64,000 nt of DNA from Desulfurivibrionaceae bacterium (GTDB lineage: Bacteria; Desulfobacterota; Desulfobulbia; Desulfobulbales; UBA5123). Position numbers and translations under genes: made by a program. The notes below the pieces were generated by a model. That model was not told the origin of the DNA, did no database searches, and saw only the letters and a list, made by a program, of their open reading frames with translations. Of this stretch, positions 2,345-5,932 are shown one piece after another (positions within the stretch are counted from its first letter, which is position 1; every line of letters starts with the position of its first letter). Location of the stretch: contig JAQYVW010000003.1 of assembly GCA_030145325.1 (NCBI GenBank), positions 1-64,000 on the forward strand, in the 5' to 3' direction.

Positions 2345-3706
2345 TTACTTTTTAACCGGGGCAGGAATCTTATTGAAGATAATCTTCTGGTTGGCCTTGG
2401 GATCTTCTGGCACCAGATCGGTTTTCGTCAGGAAGAGTTCCTTTTGTCCGTGACATGCGTTACAGGATTGGTTCTGCTTGGTCTTACGCTGGATGCTGTG
2501 AACCGAAGCGGAGTTCCAGGTAGGCAACGCGTCATAGTTGGCAATGAGGTCTTTTGGACCAGGGCTTCCGGTCAATACGGCCTGGAAGTAGGTCAACGAG
2601 GCCAGGGAGTCTTTCTTCGCCGGAGTGTGGCGAACCAGATTGTACTTGTATGGGTTGTTGGGGGTGATATCGATGTTCTTGCCGATCTTGAAGGTAACAA
2701 GCGGATCGGACGGGAAGATCACCTTAATCTTGCCAGCTTCCTTGATATCAAGGGAGACGTGACAGTTGGCACAGTTAAAGTACTCGTTAGCATGGCAAAC
2801 CGCGCAGGCCAAGGTGCCATCTGGATGGGCATTATGCATGGCGATTCTGGATTTGCCGGATTTGGCAGCATCGGGATGACAACTTTCGCAACGAGCGGTT
2901 TCGGTGTCATAATAACGTTTGCTGTCGGCTGGTTTGGTACCGTGAAGCTGATTAGCGGTATGGCAATCAGCACAGACCATCTGTAGCTTCTCGTAATGAA
3001 CATCGGCAGTGGCGCCGAGCAGACCCCGATATTCGCCGCCGAAACGGGAACCATGGCAAGCATAACAGGTCTTCTCCATGGGTGGAGTCTTCAGAAAGCG
3101 ATGCCGGTCTAGCAGGCCACCTTTGGCTACTTCCGGCCAGGCGACATGACAGCTGCCGCAAGAGGCATGGCAGTCGTTACAGTCAAGTTTCCAGGCTGCA
3201 GGCAACAGGGTGTCACCCATTTTGTGTGGTTGGGTGATGGTGCCGACGATATCAAGGATGCCAGTCAGTTTGTAATGCATGGCATTCTTGTAAGAGGCGG
3301 CTGTATCTTCATGACATTCAGCGCAGACGCCGCCGCCACCCTCATCCGAGGGATCTTTGGTCATGTCTTTATGTGCTTCGTCCTTATCGCCGACGTTATG
3401 TCCTTTGTGGCAATTTACACAACCGATCTGGCCGTGCTCGGATTCAACGAAGTCTTTTGCTACACCGTACGTATCCCGGCCCCTCACCTGAGGGGCAGAA
3501 ACGCCTCAACCGGCGATCCCGGCCGAACTACTGGCGGCTGCGGCGCCGAAGGCGTCCATTTGGTCAAGGTCGGTGTGACACTTGATACACTCACTGCTGG
3601 ATGCTGCTTCTGCCTGGGCGGAAACCGTTCCGGCGATGCCGAACGTACACGCCAACCCAAGCAAAGCTGCACTGGTCAGAGTGAGTTTCTTTTTGCCAAT
3701 CATCAT
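2345..3706 (-). CDS. Secreted 11-heme c-type cytochrome with an in-frame UGA (predicted selenocysteine) at 3506-3508
   Basis: ORF 3506..3706 (signal peptide plus CIKCH) and ORF 2345..3487 (CVNCH, CAECH, CNDCH, CGSCH, CYACH, CADCH, CESCH, CAVCH, CANCH, CNACH) are in the same frame, separated by one TGA and 6 sense codons. SECIS-like hairpin follows immediately. RBS AAGGAGGAACAG before ATGATG. Confidence 0.75.
3479..3496 (-). promoter_or_regulatory. Candidate bacterial SECIS element
   Basis: RNA: UGA-GGCGUUUCU-GCCCCUC[AGGU]GAGGGGC. Perfect 7-bp stem, AGGU loop, 16 nt between the UGA and the loop. This resembles E. coli fdhF, which has 17 nt and an AGGUCU loop. Confidence 0.75.
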
Positions 3707-4308
3707 CTCTGTTCCTCCTTAAAGGTTTTGAGAAATTTGAAATCCAGTATCGTCTCCGTCGGTGCTGGATTCCTGCCATGTTACGTTAGTACTTCTGTTC
3801 ATCACCCGACCCCGTTTTGTGGACGCGGTAGGGGTTTGAGTGGTTGTTAGGTCAATCTGGCCAAGAAGATTCGGTGCACCTCCTTGTTTCAGGTTGAAAC
3901 AAAAAAAGAGAGAATTTATCGTCAATGTTATCAAGCATTTAATGTATCGTCGAAATAGATAACTAGTTTTTAAAAGAGCTTTTAGTTTCTACCACCAATG
4001 GGTGAAGGGCGCCTGTGGCAAATTGTCGCAGCTGGTGATTTTTTATAAAGTTCGGGGGGACATGATGCAGTACTTGGGTTGTTTTTTTGACTGTAGGGAT
4101 GGGGATATTTTTTAACAGAGGAATGGGGTAATAATTCACAGAGATTGTATTCTTGTTGAAAATTGCTCCCCTATATAATGATAAGGGTATCAATGGCGCA
4201 AGACTTCATGATTTCCCTAAGTACATTGAAATTTCAACGAGAGCCTATTACCCGTTAGGTGTTGCAGCCGGATCGTAGGGGGAATGTAAAATATGTCATG
4301 GGAGTGGG

Positions 4309-5065: not shown

Positions 5066-5932
5066 CTACTTGGTGCTTAAGTTATCGTAGCCCACTCGGT
5101 TCAGGATATCGCCGAACCGTTCCTTACCTTGAAATTGGGCCATGAAGAGTTTGAGGCATTCTTTTATCACCGTTAAGGCCTGCTTTGCTGAAAAAATGCC
5201 GGGTAGTTGCAGGCCAAGTTGCGGGTGGCGACCGAGTTTGCCGCCCAGAAGAATCCGGTAGCCATGTTTACCTGCCACCAAGGTGTTGGTGGGGCAATCG
5301 CGGTGACAGTGACCGCAGTAGAGGCATTTGTTGAAATCAATAACCGGCCCACGGGCAGTGAGGGTGACTGCTTCCTCGCGGCAGCTATCGACGCAACTGT
5401 TGCACTGACTGCATGGCTCGTCAGTTATGGAGGGCGGGCTTGCACCCAGAAGGCCGACGTCAACAATCTGTGGTCGTGAGCATCCATTGGGACAGTCGGA
5501 GATTGAGATGCGGAACTCATGGTGCATCTTTAGTGGCCCCTTGACCTTTGTTTGCAGAAATCTTTTGAGATCAAGGGCGTTGAGGTGTTCTTCGATGCGA
5601 GCAGCAAGACCGTCGTCGTCACCGATGCGGTTGGGACAGCCGGAAGGGCCGAAACAGTTGTCCACCTGGTACCCCTTGACCTCGGCTTCCATGTTGCCTA
5701 AGTAGCGGGCTTGGGCGCTGTGTAGATGGGCGATCGATACCTTGTTGCTGCCGCTTTTACGTGCTTCCGCCTCTACTTTTTTTCGTACTCGTGAGCGAAC
5801 AAAAAAAGGCACCTTGCCAATGGCCGCGCTTGCGTCTTCACTCCATTCCATGCCCAAAACCTCCATTGTTAAGCAAAAGTTTCCAAGATGAAGATAGCAA
5901 AGCGGTTCTCGGCGCGCCTTGACCCAGGTCAA
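5066..5932 (-). CDS. 4Fe-4S nitrite/sulfite reductase-like protein with ferredoxin domain
   Basis: DCPNGCSRP siroheme/4Fe-4S motif and two ferredoxin clusters CSQCNSCVDSC and CLYCGHCHRDCP. The start may be internal. Confidence 0.82.
   Translation of the reverse strand: MTWVKARREPLCYLHLGNFCLTMEVLGMEWSEDASAAIGKVPFFVRSRVRKKVEAEARKSGSNKVSIAHLHSAQARYLGNMEAEVKGYQVDNCFGPSGCPNRIGDDDGLAARIEEHLNALDLKRFLQTKVKGPLKMHHEFRISISDCPNGCSRPQIVDVGLLGASPPSITDEPCSQCNSCVDSCREEAVTLTARGPVIDFNKCLYCGHCHRDCPTNTLVAGKHGYRILLGGKLGRHPQLGLQLPGIFSAKQALTVIKECLKLFMAQFQGKERFGDILNRVGYDNLSTK

Follow-up and report, generated by a model that had tools for sequence, protein, structure and literature searches.

The window, meaning the whole stretch of 64,000 nucleotides that was analysed, carries on its minus strand a gene for a predicted selenocysteine (Sec)-containing 11-heme c-type cytochrome, located at positions 2345–3706 (453 codons plus a stop codon, with one in-frame TGA) and matched by the Pfam families Cytochrome_C7 and Cytochrom_c3_2. 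A preliminary description of this DNA had read the ORFs at 3506–3706 and 2345–3487 as one frame broken by a single TGA, and their coordinates and frame could be verified: both ORFs share the same frame and are separated by the TGA at 3506–3508 (–) alone, which falls at residue 67 in the motif A-G-U-G. The part 5′ of this codon provides, as first described, a Shine-Dalgarno sequence (AAGGAGGA; 3713–3720 (–)), a signal peptide recognised by inspection (3617–3706 (–), with likely cleavage after VSA) and the heme 1 motif CIKCH (3575–3589 (–)), which is the sole heme motif upstream of the UGA. The part after the TGA was likewise seen to hold the ten further CxxCH motifs attributed to it, bringing the total to 11, while having neither a signal peptide nor a Shine-Dalgarno sequence at its possible GTG start (position 3487). 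Judged from the sequence, the product would be a c-type cytochrome that is exported, binds 11 hemes and has a single Sec residue, located in a Gly-rich segment that separates heme 1 from heme 2. Searches of PDB sequences and of a plasmid collection gave no match, and an AlphaFold2 model built with eight close sequences was set aside at a pLDDT of 29.

On the same strand, the two genes that directly follow the cytochrome gene encode exported tandem rhodaneses. The first (1313–2287 (–), likely start ATG at 2287) matches the Pfam Rhodanese family in two stretches and retains the active-site Cys (CNSSQ, in the context YCNSSQFAG), i.e. it has two domains and a catalytic Cys, and it scored below the equivalog cut-offs of NF008557 (107 of 250 bits) and ExtH (49 of 200 bits). 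In the second (336–1280 (–), likely start ATG at 1280), the active-site Cys has been replaced (TYSNHG), and this protein is perhaps a structural or regulatory partner. Because the window begins at base 1 of its contig (C88), 335 nt beyond the second rhodanese gene, any continuation of the operon lies outside the assembly. On the other side of the cytochrome gene, the protein encoded at 5066–5932 (–) has a PCP_red domain, after which come a 4Fe-4S domain of the nitrite/sulfite reductase type and a ferredoxin-like segment.

Homologues were searched for in the order (261 genomes) and in a sample of the phylum (396 genomes), which yielded 98 distinct usable sequences from this one phylum; the distant matches L012–L014 were discarded as lying outside the cytochrome family and having no recognisable Sec region. 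The check proposed in the preliminary description, namely an alignment of homologues at the TGA position, revealed TGA in 86 sequences, Tyr in 11 and Cys in one. An invariant Gly precedes this column, and Gly or Ala follows it in the Sec forms (G-U-[G/A]). The frames of the Tyr and Cys homologues run uninterrupted through the column, which identifies the read-through product as the functional form. The 11 heme motifs are conserved across the homologues, with heme 1 present in 96 of the 98 and the alignment gapped at this position in the remaining two. On either side of the TGA, dN is well below dS, which indicates purifying selection on both parts. In a maximum-likelihood tree, the Tyr and Cys forms together constitute one nested clade, so that Sec is ancestral and was replaced once. 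Moreover, one genome (G021) holds both a TGA copy and a Tyr copy, and SelB has been retained in nine of the ten other Tyr-form genomes, so that the replacement of Sec cannot be put down to a loss of the machinery for its insertion.

Next to the UGA, the preliminary description had reported the hairpin GCCCCUC-AGGU-GAGGGGC (3479–3496 (–)), and both its 7-bp stem and the start of its loop after 16 nt proved exact. The stem begins 9 nt past the UGA and the loop G residues are located 18–19 nt after it (the first at nt 18), in keeping with bacterial SECIS (bSECIS) elements, in which a hairpin just 3′ of the UGA presents a loop G at a distance of about 16–37 nt. Taken alone, the hairpin of the window is of modest significance (z of –1.8 versus dinucleotide shuffles, and a score reached by 1% of synonymous recodings), so that the case for it rests on the homologues, including covariation in a related subfamily, and on the genome. 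An Rfam scan of positions 3000–4200 of the window returned no match, although no Rfam family for bacterial SECIS elements is known to us from which one could have been expected.

Across the homologues, the hairpin signal far exceeds chance. In most TGA forms a hairpin with a loop-start G at about nt 17–19 after the UGA is possible, although the stems differ, as illustrated by GUGGCUCC-GUU-GGAGCCAC, GUGGAGCC-GUU-GGCUCCGC, GUGGUUCC-GUU-GGAACCAU and CUCCGCC-GGUCAA-GGCGGAG. When folding was compared with that of synonymous recodings, 73% of the 86 TGA forms did better than 95% of their recodings, whereas none of the Tyr forms did, and the hairpin was absent from the latter. Within the subgroup with a GUU loop (31 sequences), 94.8% of the cells were paired and 15 cells were doubly changed, as opposed to a mean of 2.1 after shuffling (0 of 500 shuffles reaching the observed value), and the signal was lost upon sliding the pairing partner. 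The A3 subfamily (mostly GEGUAG) also possesses the hairpin, with 85.7% of cells paired versus 28.6–51.9% when slid; its stems are conserved and nearly invariant, and its covariation was not significant.

The genome of the window was further inspected for selA, selB, selC and selD, as the preliminary description had advised, and all four are present: selA (626 bits), selB (382 bits), a tRNA-Sec with UCA anticodon (74.9 bits) and selD (337 bits; L161). This selD gene has a TGA of its own (RTCG-U-AAKIGP) at the place of Cys17 of Escherichia coli SelD and probably encodes a selenoprotein itself, which is a hint from within the genome that Sec is in use there. Among the other genomes, selB was not found at E ≤ 1e-60 in four drafts of one genus (G194, G195, G196 and G198; 90–94% complete and each with a TGA-form cytochrome), of which two did yield a tRNA-Sec, and this might indicate either assembly gaps or an unusual SelB. 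The Sec insertion originally proposed is thus supported by the homologue column, by the covarying hairpin and by the presence of selA, selB, selC and selD, and the cytochrome gene is almost certainly a genuine selenoprotein gene in which Sec is inserted at the UGA at 3506–3508.

The association with a rhodanese extends well beyond the window. In 90 of the 95 informative loci a rhodanese is either fused to the cytochrome or encoded at most 600 nt downstream of it, with an upstream rhodanese in two loci and none nearby in the remaining three. Several families of the same order have proteins of some 710 residues in which the rhodanese is fused to the C-terminal end (L021–L028, L039 and L040), and an N-terminal fusion was found at L124. 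The catalytic Cys is retained by the first rhodanese in the window and in most neighbourhoods examined, while no catalytic Cys motif was seen in the second rhodanese of most loci that have two. At a single locus (L139), the rhodanese gene is followed by genes for the selenium transporter YedE (480 bits) and for a Se/S carrier protein, and in one distant branch the operon additionally contains a further multiheme cytochrome, a further rhodanese and a membrane protein in which a b561-like part is combined with a multiheme one. This conserved partner was evidence that the preliminary description did not mention. Together with the fusions in both orders, it strengthens the earlier suggestion that Sec has a redox or chalcogen-binding role; the accompanying notion of a multiheme wire fared less well, as the rhodanese pairing and the selenium or sulfur genes near some members speak for a reaction of chalcogen at the Sec residue rather than for mere conduction of electrons. 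A functional link between the Sec cytochrome and the exported rhodanese encoded beside it, and fused to it elsewhere, is very probable.

As a whole, we find it fairly likely that the locus is explained by recoding of the Sec cytochrome combined with a rhodanese-linked chalcogen mechanism. SelB and tRNA-Sec would insert Sec at the UGA at 3506–3508, directed by the adjoining hairpin, and the catalytic Cys of the rhodanese would hold sulfane sulfur (from thiosulfate, polysulfide or persulfide) or its selenium equivalent. The Sec selenolate would then contact or take up the rhodanese-bound chalcogen while the heme chain gives or withdraws electrons, so that cytochrome and rhodanese would jointly form a periplasmic oxidoreductase for sulfane sulfur (or selenium) that is connected to the respiratory chain. 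Gene context connects the cytochrome with sulfane-sulfur or selenium chemistry. The simplest scheme for this, a passage of chalcogen between the Cys-persulfide of the rhodanese and the Sec selenolate with electrons travelling via the hemes, has about an even chance of being correct; the chalcogen would probably be sulfane sulfur and possibly selenium, and reduction is a more likely direction than oxidation. No second conserved Cys was found beside Sec among the homologues. The Tyr clade indicates that a related job is feasible without selenium or sulfur at the Sec position and, being found in genomes that mostly have SelB, suggests that Sec may tune the activity rather than enable it. The Sec loop of fused forms (SGAG-U-GGKVAP; L021–L025 and L039) resembles that of E. 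coli SelD (SHGAG-C-GCKISP; L162), a likeness that is short, complete in part of the family and no evidence of homology, and that is probably convergent and possibly a shared chalcogen-handling loop.

The likeliest alternative holds that Sec is the axial ligand or redox switch of a special heme, which itself performs the sulfur chemistry with the rhodanese as supplier or acceptor. Cys is a heme ligand in the catalytic hemes of SoxA and TsdA, and Sec, Cys and Tyr would all be able to serve as anionic heme ligands. The family has nine invariant or near-invariant His residues outside the CxxCH motifs for 11 hemes, which leaves about two hemes without a conserved His as sixth ligand, although Met, Lys, a non-conserved His or no ligand at all are also possible there. 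The Gly-rich flanks of Sec rather suggest a mobile loop, and the AlphaFold2 model mentioned above was unusable on this point. We consider this ligand role credible but unlikely, while noting that sulfur or selenium transfer and Sec ligation of a heme need not exclude each other.

A selenite or tellurite reductase, or a selenium-supply system like the Geobacter ext cluster, that would act on selenium oxyanions or feed selenophosphate synthesis, seems doubtful. The ext cluster does combine a rhodanese (ExtH) with a Sec cytochrome (ExtKL), and deletion of its porin gene extI impairs selenite and tellurite reduction (PMC5877670, PMC6148476). Yet the cytochrome of the window falls below the cut-off for ExtKL and its rhodaneses fall below that for ExtH, and no ExtI-like porin was recognised in the adjoining sequence, which ends 335 nt past the second rhodanese. 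The YedE and Se/S carrier genes of L139 and the local resemblance to the SelD loop would fit such a system, but YedE accompanies the family at that one locus alone.

Finally, mechanical gene calling does report two ORFs here and the GTG at 3487 does exist, but it is highly improbable that the TGA is a true stop between a one-heme peptide and a ten-heme protein, or that the gene is a pseudogene or sequencing artefact, given a TGA at one column in 86 homologues with a sense codon and continuous frame in 12 others, a covarying hairpin, dN well below dS on both sides, a GTG that sits inside the hairpin without a Shine-Dalgarno sequence, and a second part without signal peptide. In particular, both a decaying gene and the sequencing error against which the preliminary description had cautioned are excluded by the distinctness of these 86 TGA sequences and by their dN/dS pattern.

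Neither NCBIfam nor Pfam contains a model for this cytochrome family, and for four further members from distinct subfamilies (including a fused Tyr form) no cytochrome model came near its cut-off. A table of prokaryotic selenoproteins in a 2026 review, which puts its total at more than 110 families, has ExtKL, GSU2204 and TIGR04315 as heme or CXXCH entries and, in the portion of it available to us, nothing like an 11-heme rhodanese-linked cytochrome (PMC13188914). The openly accessible journal literature that was searched likewise did not describe any selenocytochrome with 11 hemes or with a link to a rhodanese. Since the family belongs to neither ExtKL nor TIGR04315 (see below) and is absent from that portion of the table, we regard it, on the strength of sequence comparison, as a new and widespread selenoprotein family among the predicted selenocytochromes. 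Few selenocytochromes are on record, and no established role for Sec was found for the best studied of them, ExtKL. With an ancestral Sec, one documented loss, a near-constant partner and natural fusions, the present family would make the role of Sec in a multiheme cytochrome directly testable. Standard ORF calling breaks the TGA forms into two pieces and leaves the main ORF without signal peptide and heme 1, so that genome annotations are likely to overlook what is probably a periplasmic chalcogen enzyme or to give it the wrong start. It may tentatively be proposed, at somewhat short of even confidence, that an undescribed respiratory system is at hand, in which Sec takes sulfane sulfur or selenium from a dedicated or covalently fused rhodanese and redox proceeds through an 11-heme chain; if true, many lineages of the phylum that was sampled would use selenolate-heme chemistry for the periplasmic oxidation or reduction of sulfur (or selenium).

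Among known systems, ExtKL (NF040886; Geobacter extHIJKLMNOPQS) is a predicted selenocytochrome that likewise has several c-type hemes, a single Sec encoded by UGA and a rhodanese-like protein, ExtH, in its cluster. However, the hemes of ExtKL number five and its Sec lies beyond them, in a C-terminal part free of hemes (context GH-x-[IVL]-PDG-U), whereas the cytochrome of the window has 11 hemes and carries Sec in a Gly-rich loop between hemes 1 and 2. NF040886 (cut-off 250 bits) did not match it up to E = 10, a profile-profile comparison revealed no convincing match (9% identity over 93 columns, away from Sec), and a search of genome G000 with the ExtKL family found only a 20.8-bit match in another gene. 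Membership of ExtKL was rejected on the score and on the differing heme number and Sec place and context.

The octaheme tetrathionate reductase family TIGR04315 is also multiheme, and some of its members are listed as selenoproteins, including the GenBank-annotated WP_331457571.1 in the portion of the table available to us (PMC13188914). Its similarity to the window cytochrome is weak and covers about 95 residues (29.9 bits over residues 233–327, against a cut-off of 375), and with 11 hemes rather than eight, membership of this family was rejected as well. At L106, a member of the present family occurs together with a TIGR04315-like gene that likewise contains a TGA (966–2564 (–); GNRY-U-GLPGG; 77.7 bits for the scanned part) and that is the second gene downstream of it, with a rhodanese gene in between. 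The co-occurrence of both genes indicates that they encode separate proteins, and this cluster probably holds two selenocytochromes.

A parallel in design is offered by psr/phs operons that include a rhodanese, such as that of Desulfurivibrio alkaliphilus, in which the rhodanese beside psrA was proposed to pass sulfur to PsrA (PMC5016858). There, a respiratory reductase would receive its sulfane sulfur from a rhodanese, as we infer for the cytochrome family, although the partner would here be an 11-heme selenocytochrome instead of a molybdopterin enzyme, so that the two systems would share a design and no homology is claimed.
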